Origin: Chromera velia
Taxonomy: Eukaryota > Sar > Chromeraceae
Direction: 5' to 3'
Length of the DNA stretch: 25,541 bases
Assembly (NCBI GenBank): GCA_018398765.1
Contig: JAHBMJ010005940.1
Span: forward strand, 8,378-33,918
The position numbers and the translations under genes were made by a program. Below are positions 3-24,395 of the stretch, one piece after another. The notes beneath the pieces were generated by a model. It was not told the origin of the DNA and did no database searches. It saw only the letters and a program-made list of their open reading frames with translations. How positions within the stretch are numbered: the first letter of the stretch is position 1; the number at the start of each line of letters is the position of its first letter.

Positions 3-764
3 GGGGGGGGGTCGTTGGGTGAAGGGGAGACGTACGGGAGGTTAGGGATGGAAGCGTTGATGAATGGAGTGATTGAGAGTGAGAGAGGCCTGCCTGAGCT
101 TAGAGAAGTGGATTTTTCGTACACGCGGGCAGGGGAAGGGGCGACAGCTTTGGGCCGTGGGCTGATGTCAGGGAAGTTGGGGGGTCTGACCCGCATTGAC
201 TTGTCTTGTGCGTCTTTGAGAGATGAGGGTGTGGAGGGACTTGGGGAAGCCATCAGAGCGGGGGCTCTGGAGTTGAAACTAGGGCCAAGACTGGAGGGGC
301 ATGTGAACAGCGAGGGGTGGCAGGGGTTTTTGCAGTCAATTATAGACAGTGAGAGAGGGCTTCCGAGACTTCGTTATCTGGAACTCGACGAAGGTTGGCA
401 TTCACGTGGGGGGCTTGGGGGTTCCATTGGGAGGGTGTTGGGGTCAGGGAAGGTGCCGTCTCTCCAGTCTCTGTGTCCTCAATCGTATGTGCTTGATGAA
501 GAACCTGAGGGTTTGTTGGCATTGAGTGAGGCAATTCGAGTGGGGAGATTCCCTCCTCGATTTGATGCATGGCCCGGCCTCAGCTTCCGTCTGGCGTACA
601 GAAGACAGGAGGTGGAGAGAGTGAACCTCGACTGCTTGCTGTTTGCCATTGCAGAGAGTGAGAAGGGACTCCCTAGTTGTGTAAGAGAACTAGATCTGAG
701 GGGGGGGCGAGTGGGAGAGGGGGCTTTAGTGGCACTCAGGGAGGCAGCATCTGGTAGTTCCTCT

Positions 765-796
<32 letters not shown>

Positions 797-1160
797 TTCC
801 TCCTGTTCCTCCTCACCGGGTGGTTCGAAAAAGCTTTCTCATTTGAGATGCCTCAATCTGTTTGAGTGTGGCATTGACGATCTGAGGCTGGGGAGGCTGG
901 GTGAGATCTTCTGTGCAGATAGATGTCCACAGCTCGAGGAACTTTCTCTTGAGTTGAATGAAATCACTGCAGAGGGGTTCTCGGCCTTCGTTGACGTTCT
1001 CTCCCCGGACTCCCTTCCGAAGCTCCGGGTGTTAAAGTTGAGCGGCCAGCGGGGACTGGAGGAGCGAGAGCACTCAAAGGCTTTTTGGGCCTCTGTCAAA
1101 GCTCTGCAGAAGAGGGCGCGCTCAAACGGAAAGCTCCCATGTTGGCCCAGTATTAAATAA
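3..1160 (+). CDS. Leucine-rich-repeat protein, 5' partial
   Basis: The reading frame is open from the left edge to a TAA at 1158-1160, giving about 385 residues. There is no convincing start: the first in-frame start-like codon is TTG at 15, and the frame runs open upstream of it, so the true N terminus lies outside the window. The protein consists of irregular leucine-rich repeats of the ribonuclease-inhibitor-like kind. Recognisable strands include GLPELREVDF, LTRIDLS, GLPRLRYLELD, VRELDLRG, LRCLNLFECGIDD, LEELSLELNEITAEG and LPKLRVLKLSG, each usually followed by a helix rich in Gly, Glu and Ala. A serine run (756-815) interrupts the repeats. There is no signal peptide or membrane segment in the visible part. 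By family knowledge such LRR proteins bind other proteins; the partner is unknown. The style matches large LRR families in chromerid algae (inference from memory). No intron is needed in the visible part. Confidence 0.82.
756..815 (+). repeat. TCY codon repeat encoding poly-serine
   Basis: Sixteen consecutive Ser codons, almost all TCC or TCT, are followed by one Cys codon (TGT, 804-806) and three more Ser codons. The run sits between two leucine-rich repeats, just before PGGSKKLSHL. It is a pyrimidine microsatellite inside a coding region and probably forms a flexible linker. Confidence 0.9.
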
Positions 1161-1713
1161 TGTTGACAGGATAAAGAGGATCTCCATGGAGACTAATCTA
1201 GAGACTAATATAGATAAAGGCTGCAATGTTGGTGCATGAATGTGTATGACCGTCTCCCCAATCAGTGGAGAGTAACAGTTAAGGTAAAATTTTACTCTGA
1301 GTCTAAGCTTTACCCCTATAGTCAATAGTACTCAGACTGTAGTCTTTCTCAGCTTACTCTCTCTAATAGACTATATTGCACCATCCTATCCAAAGTGGTT
1401 AAAGTATGGCAAAGTAAGACAAGTCCACCCCTAAAAAAGGTCAATATTAGGATCGAAACTAGGACTAATTAAAGCTAAAAAGTGGTGGAACTTAAGTTTG
1501 TTAGTAGGCTTCTTATGAAGTTTAATTAATCTTTATTGAAACCTAGATAGAAAATGATAGAAACCTAGTAGATAGAAACTCTTTAGTAATTCAAACTCTT
1601 AGAGAAACTCCTACTAGTATATAAGCTTTCATTCAAAACATATTATTTACTATAGATTATTTACTGTTACCATATACTCTAAGGATTGGATAATTTTGCA
1701 TTTCGATAAAAGT
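1161..1713. other. AT-rich intergenic spacer, no gene seen
   Basis: This stretch has no sustained open frame and is clearly more AT-rich than the LRR gene to its left. Short words such as TAGAAACCTAG and AACTCTTAG recur, but no ordered repeat stands out. It would contain the 3' UTR of the LRR gene; no clear polyadenylation signal was identified. Confidence 0.6.
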
Positions 1714-2053
1714 ATGTTCTGTACTACTCCGATGCGATTCGTTCAGAGTAATAACAGAATTCTATAAGGTATAATCAGTTGTTCTAGAGTTGTTTGTACT
1801 TATGCAGAGAACGGATTTAAGGGTCCACTTCAGTGTTTTTGCAGGTTCTGGAAGGTTCTCGATTTCTGGGGGTCTTGACTGAGGGTCCGAAATCGATCTG
1901 AAGTCGGATGGATTTCTCTGATCCCCCTGGAAGACTTGGATGTTTTAAGTCTTTCGGTAGTCTTCCAGTCCATGCGACAGGCCGTCATTCAAATCTTTCA
2001 CTCATTCAAGTCTTTCGCTAGTTTTTTATTTCGAAGTCTTTCATTGGAAAAGG

Positions 2054-2125
2054 CAAGATGCCTGGTCTTGAACCAGAGACCTTCAGTATGCTAGGCAGTT
2101 GCTCTACTAACTAGGCTGGTAGTTG
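2054..2125 (-). pseudogene. tRNA-Ala(AGC)-like element, unit 1
   Basis: Read on the minus strand, these 72 nt fit the tRNA layout exactly: 7-nt acceptor side, CA, D arm, anticodon arm with loop CTAGCAT (AGC at positions 34-36), 5-nt variable loop, T arm with loop TTCAAGA, and a 7-nt 3' side. Box B reads GGTTCAAGACC, a full match to GGTTCRANNCC. The T stem pairs fully (one G-T). The D and anticodon stems are partly broken, and the acceptor stem has few pairs, so it cannot be a normal tRNA. A run of four T lies just after the 3' side on the minus strand, as expected for a Pol III stop. Confidence 0.7.
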
Positions 2126-2630
2126 GTTTCTTTAAAGGTATATATTCTATCCTGAGTGTTCTTTTATTTTTTCTCTAGGTTTTTCTATTGTCTTCTTTTT
2201 CTATTTTCAGTTTGGCGTTCCACTAAGACATAACATGTGCCCCCTTTCAAGTTTGGGGTTCCACGCCCAAAGATATAACATGAACACAACGTGTTCTATA
2301 CTACTCCGACGCGATTCGTTCAGAGTAATAACAGGATTCTATAAGGTATAGTCAGTTGTCCTAGAATTGTTTGTACTTACGTAGAGAACGGATTTAAGGG
2401 TCCACTTCAGTGTTTTTGCAGGTTCTAGAAGGTTCTCGATTTCTGGGGGTCTTGACTGAGGGTCCGAAATCGATCTGAGGTCGGATGGATTTCTCTGATC
2501 CCCTTGGAAGACTTGGATGTTTTAAGTCTTTCGGTAGTCTTCCAGTCTATGCGACAGGCCGTCATTCAAGTCTTTCACTCATTCAAATCTTTCACTAGTC
2601 TTTCACTTCGAGGTCTTTCATTGGAAAAGG

Positions 2631-2702
2631 CAGGATGCCTGGTCTTAAACCAGAGACCTTCAGCATGCTAGGCAGTTGCTCTACTAACTAGGCTGGTAGT
2701 TG
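2631..2702 (-). pseudogene. tRNA-Ala(AGC)-like element, unit 2
   Basis: Same 72-nt tRNA layout on the minus strand with AGC in the anticodon position and a downstream TTTT. Box B is weakened to GGTTTAAGACC. The acceptor stem pairs only at its two outermost positions. Confidence 0.68.
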
Positions 2703-3207
2703 GTTTCTTTAAAGGCATATATTCTATCCTGAGTGTTCTTTTATTTTTTCTCTAAGTTTTTCTATTGTTTTCTTTTTTTATTTTCAGTTTGGGGTTTTAC
2801 TAAGACATAACATGTGCCCCCTTTCAAGTTTGGGGTTCCACGCCCAAAGATATAACATGAACACAACGTGTTCTATACTACTCCAACGCGATTTGTTCAG
2901 AGTAATAACAGAATTCTATAAGGTATAATCAGTTGTCCTAGAGTTGTTTGTACTTACGCAGAGAACGGATTTAAGGGTCCACTTCAGTGTTTTTGCAGGT
3001 TCTGGAAGGTTCTCGATTTCTGGAGGTCTTGACTGAGGGTCCGAAATCGATCTGAGGTCAGATGGATTTCTCTGATCCCCCTGAAAGACTTGGATGTTTT
3101 AAGTCTTTTGGTAGTCTTCCAGTCCATGCGACAGGCCGTCATTCAAATCTTTCACTCATTCAAGTTTTTCGCTAGTCTTTTACTTCGAAGTCTTTCATTG
3201 GAAAAGG

Positions 3208-3279
3208 CAGGATACCTGGTCTTGAACTAGAGACCTTCAGCATGCTAAGCAGTTGCTCTACTAACTAGGCTGGTAGTTG
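3208..3279 (-). pseudogene. tRNA-Ala(AGC)-like element, unit 3
   Basis: Same layout. The anticodon loop here is TTAGCAT, the usual form in eukaryotic tRNA-Ala(AGC). Box B is AGTTCAAGACC, one base off the consensus, which also breaks one T-stem pair. TTTT follows downstream on the minus strand. Confidence 0.68.
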
Positions 3280-3784
3280 GTTTCTTTAAAGGCATATATT
3301 CTATTCTGAGTGTTCTTTTATTTTTTTTCTAGGTTTTTCTATTGTTTTCTTTTTTTATTTTCAGTTTGGGGTTTTACTAAGACATAACATGTGCCCCCTT
3401 TCAAGTTTGGGGTTCCACGCCCAAAGATATAACATGAACACAACGTGTTCTATACTACTCCGACGCGATTCGTTCAGAGTAATAACAGAATTCTATAAGG
3501 TATAATCACTTGTCCTAGAGTTGTTTGTACTTACGCAGAGAACGGATTTAAGGGTCCACTTCAGTGTTTTTGCAGGTTCTGGAAGGTTCTCGATTTCTGG
3601 GGGTCTTGACTGAGGGTCCGAAATCGATCTGAGGTCAGATGGATTTCTCCGATCCCCCTGGAAGACTTGGATGTTTTAAGTCTTTCGGTAGTCTTCCAGT
3701 CCATGCGACAGGCCGTCATTCAAGTCTTTCACTCATTCAAGTCTTTCGCTAGTCTTTCACTTCAAAGTCTTTCATTAGAAAAAG

Positions 3785-3856
3785 CAGGATGCCTGGTCTT
3801 GAACCAGAGACCTTCAGCATGCTAGGCAATTGCTCTACTAACTAGGCTGGTAGTTG
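3785..3856 (-). pseudogene. tRNA-Ala(AGC)-like element, unit 4
   Basis: Same layout with full box B GGTTCAAGACC and AGC anticodon. The downstream T-run is five T rather than four. The anticodon stem reads ATTGC on its 5' side. Confidence 0.68.
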
Positions 3857-4115
3857 GTTTTTTTAAAGGCATATATTCTATCCTGAGTGTTCTTTTGTTT
3901 TTTCTCTAAGTTTTTCTATTGTTTTCTTTTTCTATTTTCAGTTTGGCGTTCCACTAAGACATAACATATGCCCCCTTTCAAGTTTGGGATTCCACGCCCA
4001 AAGATATAATATGAACACAACGTGTTCTATACTACTCCGACGCGATTTGTTCAGAGTAATAACAGAATTCTATAAGGTATAATCAGTTGTCCTAGAGTTG
4101 TTTGTACTTATGCAG

Positions 4116-4391
4116 AGAACGGATTTAAGGGTCCACTTCAGTGTTTTTGCAAGTTCTAGAAGGTTCTCAATTTCTGGGGGTCTTGACTGAGGGTCCGGGA
4201 TCGATCTGAGGTCAGATAGATTTCTCTGATCCCCCTGGAAAACTTGGATGTTTAGAACGGATTTAAGGGTCCACTTCAGTGTTGTTGCAGGTTCTAGAAG
4301 GTTCTCGATTTCTGGGGGTCTTGACTGAGGGTCCGAGATCGATCTGAGGTCAAATGGATTTCTCTGATCCCCCTGGAAGACTTGGATGTTT
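4116..4391. repeat. 138-bp direct duplication inside array unit 5
   Basis: The block starting AGAACGGATTTAAGGG at 4116 restarts at 4254 and runs on to about 4391. The junction reads GGATGTTTAGAACGG. The two copies differ at scattered bases (for example GTTTTTGC against GTTGTTGC). This accounts exactly for the 715-bp spacing of unit 5. Confidence 0.9.
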
Positions 4392-4499
4392 TAAGTCTTT
4401 CGGTAGTCTTCCAGTCCATGCGACAGGCCGTCATTTAAGTCTTTCACTCATTCAAGTCTTTCGCTAGTCTTTCACTTCGAAGTCTTTCATTGGAAAAGG

Positions 4500-4571
4500 C
4501 AGGATACCTGGTCTTAAACCAGAGACCTTCAGCATGCTAGGCAGTTGCTCTACTAACTAGGCTGGTAGTTA
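4500..4571 (-). pseudogene. tRNA-Ala(AGC)-like element, unit 5
   Basis: Same layout, AGC anticodon, TTTT downstream. Box B is GGTTTAAGACC, the variant also seen in unit 2. Confidence 0.68.
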
Positions 4572-5077
4572 GTTTTTTTAAAGGCATATATTCTATCTTG
4601 GGTGTTCTTTTGTTTTTTCTCTAAGTTTTTCTATTGTTTTCTTTTTTTATTTTCAGTTTGGGGTTCCACTAAGACATAACATATGCCCCCTTTCAAGTTT
4701 GGGGTTCCACGCCCAAAGATATAACATGAACACAACGTGTTCTATACTACTCCGACGCGATTTGTTCAGAGTAATAATAAAATTCTATAAGGTATAATCA
4801 GTTGTCCTAGAGTTGTTTGTACTTACGCAGAGAACGGATTTAAGGGTCCACTTCAGTGTTTTTGCAGGTTCTGGAAGGTTCTCGATTTCTGGGGGTCTTG
4901 ACTGAGGGTCCGAAATCGATCTGAGGTCAGATGGATTTCTCTGATCCCCCTGAAAGACTTGGATGTTTTTAAGTCTTTCGGTAGTCTTCTAGTCCATGCG
5001 ACAGGCCGTCATTCAAATCTTTCACTCATTCAAGTTTTTTGCTAGTTTTTCACTTCGAAGTCTTTCATTAGAAAAGG

Positions 5078-5149
5078 CAGGATGCCTGGTCTTGAACTAG
5101 AGACCTTTAGCATGCTAGGCAGTTACTCTACTAACTAGGCTAGTAGTTG
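5078..5149 (-). pseudogene. tRNA-Ala(AGC)-like element, unit 6
   Basis: Same layout, AGC anticodon, TTTT downstream. Box B is AGTTCAAGACC, the variant also seen in unit 3. The D arm carries an extra change (GAGTAAC where other units have GAGCAAC). Confidence 0.67.
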
Positions 5150-5654
5150 GTTTCTTTAAAGGCATATATTCTATCCTGAGTGTTCTTTTGTTTTTTCTCT
5201 AGGTTTTTCTATTGTTTTCTTTTTTTATTTTCAGTTTGGGGTTTTACTAAGACATAACATGTGCCCCCTTTCAAGTTTGGGGTTCCACGCCCAAAGATAT
5301 AACATGAACACAACGTGTTCTATACTACTCCGACGCGATTCGTTCAGAGTAATAACAAAATTCTATAAGGTATAATCAGTTGTCCTAGAGTTGTTTGTAC
5401 TTACGCAGAGAATGGATTTAAGGGTCCACTTCAGTGTTTTTGCAGGTTCTGGAAGGTTCTCGATTTCTGGGGGTCTTGACTGAGGGTCCGAAATCGATCT
5501 GAGGTCAGATGGATTTCTCCGATCCCCCTGGAAGACTTGGATGTTTTAAGTCTTTCAGTAGTCTTCCAGTCCATGCGACAGGCCGTCATTCAAGTCTTTC
5601 ACTCATTCAAGTCTTTCGCTAGTCTTTCACTTCGAAGTCTTTCATTGGAAAAGG

Positions 5655-5726
5655 CAGGATACCTAGTCTCGAACCAGAGACCTTCAGCATGCTAGGCAAT
5701 TGCTCTACTAACTAGGCTGGTAGTTG
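5655..5726 (-). pseudogene. tRNA-Ala(AGC)-like element, unit 7
   Basis: Same layout, AGC anticodon, TTTT downstream. The T loop reads TTCGAGA, with the canonical CG of a tRNA T loop, although the 3' end of box B is changed to ACT. Confidence 0.68.
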
Positions 5727-6231
5727 GTTTCTTTGAAGGCATATATTCTATCCTGAGTGTTCTTTTGTTTTTTCTCTAGGTTTTTCTATTGTTTTCTTTT
5801 TTTATTTTCAGTTTGGGGTTTTACTAAGACATAACATGTGCCCCCTTTCAAGTTTGGGGTTCCACGCCCAAAGATATAACATGAACACAACGTGTTCTAT
5901 ACTACTCCGACGCGATTCGTTCAGAGTAATAACAGAATTCTATAAGGTATAATCAGTTGTCCTAGAGTTGTTTGTACTTATGCAGAGAACGGATTTAAGG
6001 GTCCACTTCAGTGTTTTTGCAGGTTCTAGAAGGTTCTCGATTTCTGGGGGTCTTGACTGAGGGTCCGAAATCGATCTGAGGTCGGATAGATTTCTCTGAT
6101 CCCCTTGGAAGACTTGGATGTTTTAAGTCTTTCGGCAGTCTTCCAGTCTATGCGACAGGCCGTCATTCAAGTCTTTCACTCATTCAAATCTTTCACTAGT
6201 CTTTCACTTCGAGGTCTTTCATTGGAAAAGG

Positions 6232-6303
6232 CAGGATGCCTGGTCTTGAACCAGAGACCTTCAGCATGCTAGGCAATTGCTCTACTAACTAGGTTGGTAG
6301 TTG
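6232..6303 (-). pseudogene. tRNA-Ala(AGC)-like element, unit 8
   Basis: Same layout with full box B GGTTCAAGACC, AGC anticodon and TTTT downstream. The D arm starts CAACCT rather than CAGCCT. This is the last, right-truncated unit of the array. Confidence 0.68.
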
Positions 6304-6413
6304 GTTTCTTTAAAGGCATATATTCTATCCTGAGTGTTCTTTTGTTTTTTCTCTAGGTTTTTCTATTGTCTTCTTTTTCTATTTTCAGTTTGGGGTTCCA
6401 CTAAGACATAACA

Positions 6414-7968
6414 AGTAGAGCCTATATACACTGTAGAGGTTCACTCTAATTAACTTAGTAGAGCTTAGTCTTACTCCGAGTCCATCTTAACCAAGGAATT
6501 TAGAGTAACTTCGATCGGTAAAGCTAGCGGTAAAGCTAAAAACAAGATTTTTTATCATAGTTTTAGAAGACTTCTACCGTTTAAAGTTTAATATTAATAT
6601 AATTTTTAAAAATATATTTTTTTCAATTTTTAATTTATTTTCATGACTGAAGTTCAAGTCCTAGAATGTGCTGTTTGAACCCGAAAGCGTCACTTCTAAG
6701 CCTTCGGGCCATCGCCGGCAAACCCATGCTTTTAATACTTGAAGTCTTTTTTACAACCTTTTTGCGAGAGTTTTTATTTAGACCTCGATCGAACCACGCT
6801 CGCATCAATCATGTCAGTTGTCAAAAAAAGATGAGGAATGTTCAAAAAATTACAAAAGTGGCACACCATCTCATATTTCGTTGGCCAGTCCCCTCACAAT
6901 CGCTCTATCGCTCCTCTATCCTTCCCGCCCGTATCGAACTATTTTGATCTCTCGATCACTCGTCATGTTAGGATCTTCTCCACGGTCAGGGCCAGGTCTA
7001 TGCGATCTTCTGTGTACGAATCTTGACCGAGCTAACCAATTGAGAACGCATCTTCAGTCCGATCGATCGTGCAGTCTCATGGGAGTGTTTTTGTGGCGCT
7101 GTGCGCGACTGCATGTCACTCCTCTCCCTCTCCTTACGCCCGCAGTCTTCGAGTCTTCCTATTTCCGTCCAGACGCGTGTACGCACGTACGGAACTGGAA
7201 TTCAGTCAAGACGGCGCAGAACCACAGGCAAATAGGCAGAATAGAAGTGCGTCTCCGGTCTCATCGACTAATCGGACGGATACGGCATGAGAGAGAGGGA
7301 AAGACGATTGCATGCATTACTCAGTGCTGTCACAAAACAAGACAGAGGGAAGGCAGTAAGATAGGAAGAAAAGACAGACAGAAGGCCGAAGACAGCATCG
7401 AAAGAAAAGAAAAAATCTGTGAGGAAGAATGAAGGGGGAAAAAATATGCGTGTTCCCACCGCAGCCTGATGACACTCAGACTCGGCACGGATACACATAC
7501 ACCTCTCCTCCCAACCAAACGAAACCAGACCAAACGATTTGTTTTTTTCGTTAAAAAAGATGAGGGCGCTTCCTTTGCTTTTGCTGCAGTCTGACTCTTT
7601 TACTTTCTTACTTGGAGCCCAGTGCCCTTTCTTCTCCGCATCGAGACCGAGGACGAAAGGAGGGAGGAACACGAGAGAGAACAGACGGACTTCGTTCGAG
7701 TCCCAGTTGTTGGTGAAACGACGTCAGTCGCAGTCTACCGTTCTGTCCAATCCACTTGATAGACTTGCAGGAAACTGAGTCACTCAGTCAGTCAGTGAAT
7801 GAATGAAAAGGATGGATGGGATGGGTGAGTGGACAAAATAAGGCAAAACGCAGACAGCGCGTGAAGTTTAGACAGACGAAGAGACAGAAAAAAACATACA
7901 TGCAGACAGACAGAAAGGCAGACTGAAAGGAGGGAAGGAAAAGGAAAAGAAAGAAAATAAGCAAGACC
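6414..7968. other. Non-coding stretch right of the satellite
   Basis: The first 250 bases are AT-rich and resemble the left flank of the array in texture (TTACTCCGAGTC here, TTACTCTGAGTC near 1292). The rest is mixed sequence of moderate GC that becomes purine-rich, with GACAGACA words near 7890-7915. Open frames of up to about 200 codons exist, but none has a recognisable domain, splice structure or coding-like composition. Confidence 0.5.
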
Positions 7969-8147
7969 GAAAAAAAAGAAAGAAAGAAAGAAAGGAAGAA
8001 AGAAAGAAAGAAAGAAAGAAAGGAAAGAAAAGAAAGAAAGAAAGAAAGAAAGAAAGAAAAGAAAGAAAGAAAGAAAGAAAGAAAAGAAAAGAAAAGAAAG
8101 AAAGAAAAAAAGAAAGAAAGAAAGAAAGAAAGAAAGAAGGAAAAGGA
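7969..8147. repeat. AAAG microsatellite, unbroken 179-nt purine run
   Basis: The plus strand contains only A and G for 179 bases, mostly AAAG repeats with AAAAG and GGAAG variants. Such homopurine tracts can form triplex structures and are prone to length change. Confidence 0.95.
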
Positions 8148-19380: not shown

Positions 19381-22300
19381 TTATCGATCGAAGCCCCCCT
19401 CCCCTTCCCCTGCGGCAGAGAAGAAGAGAGCCTCACGCAGAGAGACCAATAATTCATCCCCCATCCGATCTTCCACTCCATCCTCCTCGTCCTCTCCCGC
19501 CTTCAACAAAACCCCCTCACCACACTTAGACACAACAGGAGAGGCGGGAGACAGAACAAGGGGAAGACGCACAGGGGGGGACTGTGACCCGGACCGACAC
19601 GTGTCCGCTCCCAGCCCTCCTCTTTTTCCAACCCCCATCTCGTTTGTTGGGTCTTTCTCAGACCACACCCCGCCCCCCACTTTCTTCAGACCAACCCCGC
19701 TCTCTGTACCTGCTGCCACTCTTGTGCTTCTGTTCACGGCGGAGTCGCTCACATTCGGCGCGGCCCATCCGTTCAGGGTTGCAACCTCCTCGGGGGAGGG
19801 TTTGTGTTTGGACACCCCCCGGGGTCCTCCACACTCAGCCTGGCCCCTGCTAATGCTGAGGGGTCCCCCCGCACTCCCCCCCCACACGCTCTCAGGCGGT
19901 CCCCACAGTGAACTCGAGGGAACGGCCCCTAGCCCCCTCCCGTCCTGCATCCGCATGTGCATGGCAGAGAAGGAAAACGCAGGCGAAAGCTCGCCCTCTC
20001 CCGCCAGGGACAGAGTGTGGGTTGCTGTGGGGCTTGCTGAGTCATCCCCGTGTAGGAGGCTGAAGCGGTCGGTCGGACTGACTGGGGGGGCACCCAGGGG
20101 ACTCTCTTCACAGACCCCGCACCCGTTTGGTGACCCCCTCGGCCCCTCTGTCTGCAGGTGCATCTGGGGGGGTGAGAAGACACCGGCCCATGTGCCGGGC
20201 ATGCTGCAGCGGTGGGTTGTCGAAGTGGCAGCAGCAGTGGAGGAGAGGGGGGAGACAACGGGGGAACCGGGGGGCGCAGGGGGGGGAGTGGGTCCCCAGA
20301 ACTTATGTGCAAAACTCTCTCCTCCTCCCCCTCTGTGTTGAGAGGCCTTTGTTTGGAGAGGAACTGCAAGAGATTTCATCATTTTCCCCTCTCCCTTCTC
20401 TTTGCAACCCCCACTGGTCGGCAATAGAGGAAAGCAATCGGTTTGCCCCTCTGTCTCCTTCTGCTGCTCTGCACCTTCCGCAGACTGGTCCGAGCAGGTG
20501 CGGGGAAAAGGAAGAGACACAGAAGCTCTCGCCTCCCCCTCCTCTAAACAGTCCTCTGAGGGTGAAGCAAAGCACGCAGGGAGGAAGTCAGGAGGGTAGG
20601 GGATCTCAAACCGACCCCTCTCAAGCACTGCCGACGTGGTCCTTCTGACTACTGTGTACTCCCTCTCTAGCCCTCCGCTCGGAATGCCCTGTTCATCCCC
20701 CACATGCACCAAGGGGGGTCCGCATGCGGGGGGGCGCCTACTCGCACTGCTGCACTCCCTCGAGACCTCTCCCTCCAACCCCCCCCCTCCATTCAGGGTG
20801 GCAACTGAGAGGGCGGACCCTCTGGAGGGCGAGTGGAGAGCTGTGAGAGCAGTCTGGGGCTCCGGCTGTGCTGGGGGCAAAAGGGGGGTTGTGCGGAGGG
20901 AGGAGGAGGCCCGCCTAGAGAGGGGCAGGGACGGTGCCCCCCCTTCGCCTTCACCCCCGTCTCCGCAGTCTCCCTCTCCTTCGCCCTCTCTGGTTGTGAC
21001 CGTGACGACTGACGGAGACTCTACTGACTGCTGCTGCATCGTCTGGGTCTGGCTGCTGTCTAGCTGCATCTCCATCATATTGTCAGCTGATTTCTTCTTC
21101 ACAGGGGACGTCTGCTGTGCTGCAGGTGCAACAGTAACAGCTGAGGAGGGGCGGAGCGGCAGTGTGCCTTTGCGCACAACGGCGGCCCATGAGAGGGTTT
21201 CGTTTGTTGCATGTGCTGTAAGGGTCTTTGTCTGTGTCTTCTGTGTCTCCGCAGGGCATGGGACGGCGCTTATTTTCTGTGCTGGTGCTTTTTCTTTCTC
21301 GAGAGGTGGGAATGCGTTCTGTTGTGTTGTTGTTTTTTTCTCTTTTACACCCTCTCCCTCTCTCTTGTCTCCCTCCGTATCCCCCCACACAAGGAAGGGT
21401 TCTTCTCCGTCTCCCTCACACTTCTCCACCTCCCCCCAAGGGGCTCCCTTTCGGGCTCCTCCTCTCCCATCTGTCTCCACAAATTTGAGAGAGCGGGAAG
21501 AAGGAGACGTCGAGATGGAAACCCCCTCACAGCCACAGGCCGAGGAGGGGGAGGAAGAGGAAGAGGGACGGATACCGGCGGGGGCGCTGCACCCCAGAGG
21601 CTCGAAGGGCAGGGCCTCGGCACGCAGACGTCCGGCAGAGGGTGTCATATCAGCAGCAGGCACACACGGACAGGCTGACAGCAGTGTCAACTCCTCGACA
21701 GGCCCTCCCGCCTTCACACCGCCCCCCTTCCCCCTACTACCCCTCCGACGGCGGGCAAGCTGCTTCTTCGTTTCTGCTGCCGTCTGCACCCCTCCATTCC
21801 TCCCCCCGGTCTTCGCAGAGACACCCTCGAGGACCGTGGGAGTGGAAGAGTCCCCAGACACACCTACAGCAATCGGGCTGCCCTCCTCCTCTACCTCGGC
21901 CAGGGTACGGGCGCCACTCAGAACATGAGGGGCACTTCTCAAGACGTACTGGAGATCTTCTTCATCGGCCGTGGGGGCACCGAGGAACCTGCGCAACTCG
22001 CCTGTGGTCATCTTAGTGCCCCTCAGGTCGAGTTTCATCTTCAGAGCCTGTGCGAGGAGCTTGTCCCTCTCAGACCGTTTGTACTTCCTCTCGCGAAGCT
22101 CCTGCTGCCCGTGGGCATGACGGCAAGACTCCCCCGCAAGGCACCCCCCCTGGAGCCAGAAGTGGCAGATCCGAGACTTGTAGTAGTCGTCTGTGCTCCT
22201 CAGCTCGTGTCGTCCGTGAGCAAAGCTGCATATGAGAGAGAGAGAAAGGAAAGCACGGGGGTAAGTAAGTACAGGACTCAGGGGAGGAAGTGGAGACCGA

Positions 22301-22892
22301 GCTAGAGTGGACGTTGGACGGCCCACAAGGACGCTCAGAGGACCCGAATTCTTCCAGAAACTGTCTTGTCCCCTGAAATGGAGGGGAATGAATGGCGGGC
22401 CGAAGTACAGACACACTTGGAAGGAAGGCGAGAGAAAGATTCAGAGGATGAACGAGCTTCACGGCCGAAAAGAGTAACTGACTCACTTGCAGGATGAACC
22501 CCGGTTGCAGAAACCCCTTTGCCACAGAGGGCAGAGCTTCGTCTTTCGAAGGTCCACCTCAGGCCTCAGCTCAGAGTCATCGTGCGCATACTGCAGGGAC
22601 ACACACAAAGCGGAGAAGACAAGAACAGAAATCACGAGACTGAAGGCTTGGGACGTGATGAGGGGAAAACCCGAAAGTCACTCCCAATGCCAGACCCCGT
22701 CTTCTCTTCGCTTCAGGAAAATGCAATCGCACTTACCGTGCATGAAGTCCCCTTCGTACAGTTGCCATTGGCCTGGAAAGGGCACCTCTTGGTCTTCCAA
22801 AACTGGTCGACCTGAGCCTGCTGCTGCTGCTGGTTCTGCTGATTCTGCCTCCCTTTGGCGGAGGAATTGGAGCCTCCGTTTGCCTTCCTCAT
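19381..22892 (-). CDS. Triple CCCH zinc-finger protein, three exons
   Basis: Exons on the minus strand are 22892-22737, 22590-22487 and 22225-19381, 3105 nt in all, giving 1034 residues and a TAA stop. Three CCCH fingers follow one another: C37-C45-C51-H55, C72-C80-C86-H90 and C107-C115-C121-H125, all C-x7-C-x5-C-x3-H, each led by a short basic stretch (FWKTKRC, LRKTKLC, YYKSRIC). Finger 1 spans the exon 1/2 junction and finger 2 the exon 2/3 junction, which confirms the splicing. Residues 21-25 are poly-Gln; a basic stretch at about 240-258 ([19 protein letters not shown]) could be a nuclear signal. The remaining roughly 750 residues are Ser/Pro/Gly/Glu-rich and low in complexity. CCCH fingers of this type bind single-stranded RNA, often in mRNA stability or translation control; the target here is unknown. 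The start is the first ATG after an in-frame TGA, but lacks a purine at -3, so an upstream exon remains possible. Confidence 0.9.
22226..22486 (-). other. Intron 2 of the CCCH gene
   Basis: 261 nt, minus-strand donor GTGAGT and acceptor ATGCAG, splitting the Asn-87 codon (AA|C). An ATG inside this intron (22416) is in frame with exon 3, so a plain open-frame call starts there and loses fingers 1 and 2. Confidence 0.88.
22591..22736 (-). other. Intron 1 of the CCCH gene
   Basis: 146 nt, minus-strand donor GTAAGT and acceptor CTGCAG, between codons 52 and 53. Removing it joins CT to YAH and completes the first CCCH finger. Confidence 0.88.
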
Positions 22893-23262: not shown

Positions 23263-23382
23263 CGCATGGCCCCGGAAAGCGAAGGGGGGGGCACTTACCA
23301 ATTAAACAATCGCCTGAGCCCACGCATGGCCCCGGAAAGCGAAGCGGGGGGCACTTACAAAACAAAAATACCCCAGCCCATC
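23263..23382. repeat. Two 60-bp tandem units, CGCATGGCCCCGGAAAGCG type
   Basis: Unit one is 23263-23322 and unit two starts at 23323. Both read CGCATGGCCCCGGAAAGCG, then a G-run, then GCACTTAC. CCCC and the following G-run can pair as a hairpin. Related copies occur at 24061-24120 and 24330-24395, with a fragment at about 24430. Confidence 0.85.
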
Positions 23383-23769
23383 GCCTCGGGGGGCAGCTCA
23401 GCTCTGCTGAGATCAGCCGAGAGGCCCTGAGATCACACGCATCCGCATAACGCATTTTTTCATTTTTTGGGGGGGGATTCGGTTCTGTTTCCGTCACGGT
23501 CAGTGTTGTTTAAATTCCAAAATGTGCCCCTCAAGCAACTCGCACAGAGTAGCACGGAGCCGTGATCGTATTATAATATTATATACCTCACTCTTCATGA
23601 TACGTGCCCCTCAAGTAACTCGCATGGAATTAATTACATATGTGTTCATGCACGGTCCCGAAAAGTATATTTTGCGCACATTGCCGTGGTCCCTACCATT
23701 TGCCCAGGCAATTAAGACATGCTGCTTTTAGTTATTTCATCATGCAATCAAATTATGGCTCACCGCCTA

Positions 23770-24395
23770 AATGGCCCCCCGAGGCACTCACCCAACTACT
23801 TGAGTGTATCCCGTATATATGCATGTACGCTAGTCTTTCACTAAAAACCCAGCCCCAAAAGGCTGGATTTGCGTCATGCGTGCGTCAGCGCTCAACCCTG
23901 GGTTTTTTTCCCGCGGGGGGGAGGTTTTGCGCGCTGTTTTTTTCCTGCANCGACACTACCATGCATGCACCACAGCACCATGGTCGGCGTACATCAATCG
24001 TGCAGTTCTCATTTTTCTTGCTTTCCGGGGCTGTTCGCAAGCTTGCTTGCGCCAGATGCATACATGGCCCTGAAAAGTGAAGCGGGGGGCACTTACAAAA
24101 TAAAAATACCCCAGCCCATATATATGCACGCTAGTCTTTCACCAAAAACCCGGCCCCGAAAGGCTATATTTGTATCATGCATACGTCAGATGGCCTTTCC
24201 CGCGGGGAAAAGGAGGGGTTTCCGCACTGTTTTTTTCCCGCGGGNGGGGGGGGGGGGTCGGTGCTACCATATATACACTATGTAATGGCCAGCGTGCGTC
24301 AATCATGCATTTCTCATTTTTCTTGCTTTAGCCCCGGAAAGCGAAGCGGGGGGCACTTATGAGCACTTACCAAACAATCCCCTGAGCCCACACAT
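23770..24395. repeat. Diverged tandem repeat, ~270-290-bp period
   Basis: Copy one begins near 23770, copy two near 24063, and a third is begun at about 24330. Shared blocks are GGCCC...GCACT(T/C)AC, GCTAGTCTTTCAC, AAAACCC.GCCCC.AAAGGCT, TTTTTTTCC(C/T)GC, and CATTTTTCTTGCTTT. Both full copies carry an undetermined base (23950, 24245) in or near a G-rich run. Confidence 0.8.

Follow-up and report, generated by a model that had tools for sequence, protein, structure and literature searches.

What kind of sequence is a tandem array in which every unit carries a degenerate tRNA-like block? Such an array occupies positions 1715-6413 of a 25,541-nt stretch of the genome of the chromerid alga Chromera velia (contig JAHBMJ010005940.1, positions 8,378 to 33,918), hereafter called the window. 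The original prediction proposed either a tRNA-derived short interspersed element (SINE) turned into a satellite or a family of non-coding RNAs. We arrived at a different answer: with a probability of about 0.8, the array is a tandem multimer of one integrated, non-coding retrotransposon with long terminal repeats (LTRs), of the terminal-repeat retrotransposon in miniature (TRIM) type and of the Helenus kind. The LTR structure and ends, the target-site duplications (TSDs), the solo LTRs elsewhere and the tRNA origin of the block are all borne out at the level of sequence comparison.

The array was tandem as predicted, with eight units sharing 94.2-96.9% pairwise identity and start-to-start spacings of 577, 577, 577, 577, 715, 578 and 577 nt. 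Each unit consists of a 521-nt LTR (TGTT...AACA) and a 56-nt internal piece, arranged as LTR-(56-LTR)x7, so that both outer ends of the array are LTR ends; the fifth unit contains a 138-bp internal tandem duplication (4116-4391). Judging from the unit, a single LTR-56-LTR element would measure 1098 nt. No open reading frame (ORF) of at least 100 aa was present between window positions 1161 and 6817. The features of the array are as follows.

1711..1714, no strand: left TSD AGTA, adjoining TGTTCT at 1715 and the same as 6414-6417
1715..2235, minus: LTR 1, 521 nt, TGTTATG...AGAACA on the sense strand (taken as minus)
2236..2291, minus: internal piece 1, 56 nt, purine tract GAAAGGGGGCACA adjoining the sense 5' end of LTR 1
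2292..2812, minus: LTR 2
2813..2868, minus: internal piece 2
2869..3389, minus: LTR 3
3390..3445, minus: internal piece 3
3446..3966, minus: LTR 4
3967..4022, minus: internal piece 4
4023..4681, minus: LTR 5, with the 138-bp tandem duplication inside (4116-4391)
4682..4737, minus: internal piece 5
4738..5259, minus: LTR 6
5260..5315, minus: internal piece 6
5316..5836, minus: LTR 7
5837..5892, minus: internal piece 7
5893..6413, minus: LTR 8, ends ACATAACA, no internal piece after it
6414..6417, no strand: right TSD AGTA

We searched the 177.8-Mb assembly (4040 contigs, the window being C4011:8378-33918) for relatives, all match counts being lower bounds. With one unit as query, we recovered the family on at least six contigs (C4011, C3560, C412, C368, C3690 with two copies, and C2649), the copies outside the array showing 75-80% identity to the unit. 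A short terminal motif of the unit was also present in at least 13 further loci (L015-L027). The outer copies define the LTR ends as TGTT...AACA, with TATT at one end of L011. Two of the relatives, L010 (605 nt) and L011 (593 nt), each consist of one LTR with unrelated sequence on either side and are, by this structure, solo LTRs. Exact 4-bp TSDs were found in all three copies with both outer flanks readable, namely the array (AGTA), L010 (CTAC) and L011 (ACCT), the chance of such a match being 0.0055 per copy; the test was confined to these three, one flank of each remaining copy being internal or disrupted. Solo LTRs with TSDs imply that the 577-bp unit divides into an LTR of 521 nt and a further 56 nt, and an array stopping exactly at an LTR fits a retrotransposon multimer, unlike a randomly cut satellite. 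A 121-nt probe covering the block gave at least 14 matches in the assembly, 14 of 14 within this LTR family, and none outside it among the matches listed. No free copy of the block, such as a SINE bearing it, appeared among the matches listed.

Read on the minus strand, the 56-nt piece closes with GAAAGGGGGCACA immediately ahead of TGTTATG, the usual position of a polypurine tract (by inspection, without statistics). The array shares this tract at the LTR start with L012, L013b and L014, and the 13 longer repeats of L015-L027 have a junction related to it; a genome search with a form of this motif returned at least 12 places, all in these loci. Between the two LTRs of L013, a minus-strand ORF (the strand of the block) is homologous to the region that directly follows the integrase core. 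Many elements of the genome are homologous to it, the best identity (56%) being to C3872, whose rve match ends just upstream. Among integrases in PDB, it matched 3dlr (E 0.0025) and the PFV integrase 3oyi (E 0.0061), and it had no Pfam match of its own. The following frame gave a chromodomain match of 24.1 bits (E 3.5e-5), just under the cut-off of 25.1. In the C3872 relative, the matches to RNase H, integrase zinc finger and rve exceed their cut-offs and that to a chromodomain (21.5 bits) stays under it, a domain set that we take to be of the Ty3/Gypsy chromovirus type. On the strength of the purine tract and the integrase-chromodomain remnant of L013, we read the minus strand as sense, which is well supported although not proven, and the block most likely has the same orientation as the LTR. 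The opposite orientation, suggested by a likeness of the post-LTR piece to a primer-binding site (PBS) region, was dropped given these two features.

The tRNA-like block was compared with the tRNAs of the host itself. A profile hidden Markov model (HMM) was built from 29 tRNAs predicted by ARAGORN in this genome (excluding Ser, SeC and long ones, with near-duplicates merged and organelle-like ones kept) and run over the window and 18 loci (L010-L027), about 0.12 Mb. A covariance model with the cloverleaf was built from 26 tRNAs of this genome and run, filters off, over the window and L010-L014. The profile HMM recovered all eight array blocks on the minus strand, at 25.4-20.6 bits (E 1.1e-6 to 3.4e-5), and those of the relatives L013a (21.6 bits), L011 (15.1), L010 (14.5), L014 (14.2) and L012 (8.8), while the best match outside the LTR family in the same search reached 7.4 bits. 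Thirteen of 14 LTR copies were recovered in this way, L013b, whose block has a 12-nt insertion, scoring only 3.3 bits. Of 2000 dinucleotide shuffles of unit 4, the best reached 10.0 bits, while the unit itself scored 25.4. With the covariance model, the eight array blocks ranked 1-8 (29.0-19.6 bits), followed by L013a, L012 and L010; the L011 block (11.2 bits) ranked under one unrelated match (13.5 bits), and those of L014 and L013b were absent at E<=10. The covariance match spans model positions 9-65, corresponding to the D arm through the T arm, and locates the blocks as follows.

2061..2117, minus: tRNA-derived block of LTR 1, covariance model 27.0 bits, E 3.8e-7
2638..2694, minus: tRNA-derived block of LTR 2, 27.3 bits
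3215..3271, minus: tRNA-derived block of LTR 3, 24.5 bits
3792..3848, minus: tRNA-derived block of LTR 4, 29.0 bits, E 7.3e-8
4507..4563, minus: tRNA-derived block of LTR 5, 27.3 bits
5085..5142, minus: tRNA-derived block of LTR 6, 19.6 bits
5662..5718, minus: tRNA-derived block of LTR 7, 25.2 bits
6239..6295, minus: tRNA-derived block of LTR 8, 22.4 bits

The tRNA derivation that had been predicted is confirmed at the sequence level by the scores over shuffles and by the covariance ranks. The loss of the acceptor stem was also correctly noted: only its two outermost pairs are retained by nearly all copies, and 29.9% of its cells are paired. The proposed parentage from tRNA-Ala(AGC) did not hold up, since the Ala(AGC) genes of this genome, matched on C1459 (twice) and C3597, were outside the six best host tRNAs of unit 4, which were Val(TAC) with a score of 46, Thr(CGT) and Thr(AGT) with 44 each, a second Thr(AGT), Thr(TGT) and Ala(GGC). 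The contig bearing Val(TAC) looks to have a plastid-like tRNA set. The nearest host tRNA was Thr(AGT) for L012 and L014 and Met(CAT) for L010, and the anticodon position, AGC in all eight array blocks, reads AAC in the L010/L011/L013a subfamily.

TRIMs with a tRNA-like sequence in their LTRs have been described as Helenus, the counterpart of Cassandra with its 5S piece (Kojima, 2024, PMC10886601, the source of the statements on Helenus made here). In that account, TRIMs are <1000 bp and Helenus elements 311-1263; the tRNA or 5S piece is proposed to arise by SINE insertion into the LTR, the box A motifs TRGCY and YGG and the box B motif GGTTC are conserved in most Helenus, and transcription by RNA polymerase III (Pol III) is not validated. 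The array element resembles Helenus by its tRNA-derived block with boxes A and B in the LTR, its non-coding nature, its polypurine tract, its solo LTRs and its 4-bp TSD, as in animal Helenus. Tandem arrays are likewise noted for LTR-11_DR of zebrafish, and most Helenus are not predicted to encode a functional tRNA (PMC10886601). It differs by a longer LTR (521 nt against 323 for the longest named Helenus LTR), a shorter internal piece (56 nt against 85 in the Selaginella one) and its host, an alveolate alga, the tabulated hosts being fungi, animals and one lycophyte (PMC10886601). The box A motifs are mostly missing (TRGCY in 1/8 array units, YGG in 0/8, with GGTTC in 4/8) and no PBS was recognised in the array. 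As an apparent TRIM with tRNA-derived sequence in its LTR, the element falls within the definition of Helenus, and we refrained from filing it as a plain member because no PBS was recognised and the box A and B motifs are only partly present. We take TGGTATCAGAGC to be the PBS for initiator tRNA-Met. This PBS-like sequence is included in the search pattern for Cassandra (PMC7215508), whereas none was recognised in the array. According to the same source, Cassandra forms tandem arrays of n LTRs and n-1 internal domains (13 and 12 by PCR), so that it shares with our element this arrangement and a promoter piece from a small-RNA gene in each LTR, differing in its plant hosts and in the use of 5S rRNA instead of tRNA. 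PbTRIM of the harvester ant is also a small non-coding LTR element with 4-bp TSDs and many solo LTRs, but its LTRs are 152-184 bp and a tRNA-like block is not mentioned in the part of the source consulted (PMC3532108). By title or start of abstract, the open-access literature searched reported no alveolate element of this kind. To our knowledge, none has been known from chromerid algae.

These comparisons suggest a scenario in which an ancestral LTR would have acquired, in sense orientation, the mid part of a tRNA gene (D arm through T arm). Non-coding LTR elements as small as this one depend on mobilisation in trans. A non-coding element with this LTR, probably mobilised in trans by chromodomain-type Ty3/Gypsy elements, would have inserted once as LTR-56-LTR, and this insertion may have expanded into the multimer by unequal recombination between LTRs or may have entered as concatenated cDNA. 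It is less certain that Pol III formerly transcribed the element by means of the block. LTR retrotransposons are known to have captured small-RNA promoters in plants (Cassandra), and Helenus extends this to fungi, animals and one lycophyte. Chromerids are photosynthetic relatives of apicomplexan parasites, and a case among them would suggest that such captures happened repeatedly and independently across eukaryotes.

Several observations weigh against this interpretation. ARAGORN found no tRNA anywhere in the window, Rfam gave nothing at gathering thresholds in the window, and the Rfam tRNA model gave nothing at E<=10 in window 1100-7000 or L010-L014. No isolated LTR-56-LTR copy was present among the matches listed in the one-unit genome search, and a search with the joined flanks for a paralogous empty site returned just the two flanks themselves. 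The longest perfect complement between the 56-nt piece and the tRNAs tested (an incomplete set) was 9 nt, with shuffles mostly giving 7-9. The L013 copies add a further difficulty. L013a is 89.8 and 92.7% identical to L010, 92.2% to L011 (over a longer piece) and 88.5 and 92.6% to L013b, and L013b has the purine tract on its sense 5' side; since L013a is equally near all three and L013b bears this tract, the L013 LTRs may not bound one element and the integrase remnant may stem from a different insertion. A pattern search for a PBS candidate of L013 gave no match. As to the silence of the general tRNA tools, the signal of the block was visible solely with models made from the tRNAs of this genome: the predicted tRNA likeness failed with ARAGORN and Rfam but stood above background with the genome-specific covariance model and profile HMM. 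Once its acceptor stem is lost, such a block can escape a tRNA finder and Rfam, and protist genomes may hide more such blocks detectable with same-genome profiles. Rfam matches to microRNA and other families in the window and L010-L014 were under cut-offs and taken as chance.

The predicted minus-strand block with AGC, box A, box B and a T-run was accurate in all eight units. Compared with TRGCNNARYNGG, box A has two mismatches, except for one in unit 6 and, read by eye, three in unit 8, one more than predicted; box B has 0-1 mismatch to GGTTCRANNCC and 0-2 to the stricter GGTTCGANNCC. The boxes are 44 nt apart in every unit and are followed, 11-12 nt past box B, by TTTT (TTTTT in unit 4); boxes at tRNA-like spacing and a T-run also occur in L010, L012 and L014. 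Pol III transcription from the block is plausible on these motifs, although unproven. Alternatively, the array may be made of ordinary Pol II LTRs that carry the tRNA-derived piece within R/U5 as an inert passenger. Transcription would then start from the TATA-like AATATATG, which in LTR 4 lies shortly before the block (LTR sense positions 90-97). This alternative shares the structure of the Helenus-kind multimer, differing in the polymerase alone, so that their odds overlap, and we consider it a serious candidate at somewhat less than an even chance. A match to the TATA consensus is weak evidence, and the box spacing and T-run recurring in the array and three relatives argue the other way. 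Conservation speaks for a passenger. When the mean of L010, L011, L013b, L012 and L014 was compared with unit 8 (L013a being left out), identity was 0.78 for the block, as for the LTR on average (rank 249 of 467 windows), 0.82 for box A (rank 271/510) and 0.89 for box B (rank 132/511). Box B is thus only mildly conserved above the LTR average, the block now drifts like the rest of the LTR, and the claim that the Pol III signals are being kept finds no backing in these ranks.

The proposal of a tRNA-derived SINE whose copies turned into a satellite accounts for the tandem repetition and for a tRNA-derived block followed by a longer body, as well as for the Pol III-type motifs. SINEs of this type have no LTR and no 4-bp TSD, and carry their Pol III-type block at the 5' end and a tail at the 3' end. 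None of these traits fits the array: 117 nt of LTR precede box A, the terminal TG/CA and 4-bp TSDs are LTR traits, and a unit made of an LTR and a short internal piece, the purine tract, the solo LTRs with TSDs and the confinement of all 14 listed block matches to this LTR family contradict it, making this origin of the array very unlikely. It is possible, by analogy with the origin proposed for Helenus, that a SINE inserted into the ancestral LTR of the multimeric element was the source of its block.

We found it similarly improbable that the array is a family of non-coding RNA genes that use the promoter elements of tRNAs and whose tandem arrangement would serve dosage. Such a family would explain the boxes, their constant spacing and the T-run in 8/8 units, the fact that this T-run is the sole run of T>=4 on the sense strand of LTR 4, and, in a tRNA descendant, the excess of cloverleaf pairing: over the 11 of 14 LTR copies alignable without gaps, 56.3% of the cells of 21 cloverleaf pairs were paired, against 21-45% with partners slid by 1-3 columns. 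Yet column shuffles gave 57.0%, none of the 21 pairs showed a compensatory (two-sided) change, and the T stem alone was nearly complete (90.9% paired). Fold-energy z-scores against shuffles put two units (-0.5 and -0.9) at the shuffled level and L010 (-1.7) slightly beyond it, compared with -3.4 for a real tRNA-Thr. The cloverleaf is decaying without compensatory change and, as noted above, the block is conserved no better than the LTR average. A depletion of T-runs from the sense strand was considered and rejected (11 runs against about 10 expected from base composition by our own estimate). In the L010 subfamily, the block is enclosed by another outer stem (GGATGC/GCATCC, by inspection and folding), which was not found in array units.

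That the tRNA likeness arose by chance, as the silence of ARAGORN and Rfam might suggest, is barely credible given E-values of about 1e-6 in about 0.12 Mb, a score 15 bits over the best of 2000 shuffles, the agreement of the covariance model and the matches in the diverged subfamilies (L013a, L011, L010, L014 and L012, 21.6-8.8 bits).

A further-reaching version of the Helenus-kind multimer, which we regard as unlikely on present sequence grounds, is that a whole Ty3/Gypsy-type alveolate lineage, including members that retain remnants of integrase and chromodomain (L013), would have a tRNA-gene promoter inside its LTRs, and that the locus would have recombined into tandem Pol III units resembling a tRNA or 5S array. 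The coding partners of such TRIMs are expected to have no Pol III promoter in their LTRs (PMC10886601), an expectation that a coding lineage of this kind would contradict.

Among the eight array units, we counted 71 transitions against 2 transversions, and 58 of the differences were C>T or G>A from the majority base, distributed over 10/30 CG, 15/51 CHG and 33/161 CHH sites. There were about 6-13 transitions per transversion in seven L015-L027 pairs and about 3-5 in three L010-L014 pairs. This bias looks like cytosine deamination or a process like repeat-induced point mutation.

The larger, dispersed repeats of L015-L027 share with the array family solely the purine tract and the first LTR bases; the motif GGAACCCCAAACT lies on both sides of their LTR start, and the profile HMM found no tRNA-derived block in them. 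Tandem repeats occur in or beside these repeat loci (L021:3612-5001, about 61 bp; L027:4034-5001; L018:3659-4106). Another small LTR-like element, unrelated to the array family, spans 1.7 kb at L010:921-2635, where its 390-bp direct repeats are 96.7% identical; it is also present at L013 8747-10000.

Elsewhere in the window, positions 3-1160 (plus strand) cover the last part of a gene with leucine-rich repeats (Pfam LRR_6, LRR_4), in which a TCC/TTC microsatellite encodes a run of serines, and a long AAAG microsatellite at 7946-8143 is followed by more AGAC/AAAG tracts to about 14400. In a 1011-aa open frame at 19381-22416 (minus strand), a weak match to a CCCH zinc finger lies towards the N-terminus (Pfam, under cut-offs). 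Finally, positions 23265-24383 are a second, diverged repeat unit, with a 57-nt motif (CATGGCCCCGGAAAGCGAAG...) present four times and repeated 72- and 45-nt pieces at a spacing of about 300 nt.

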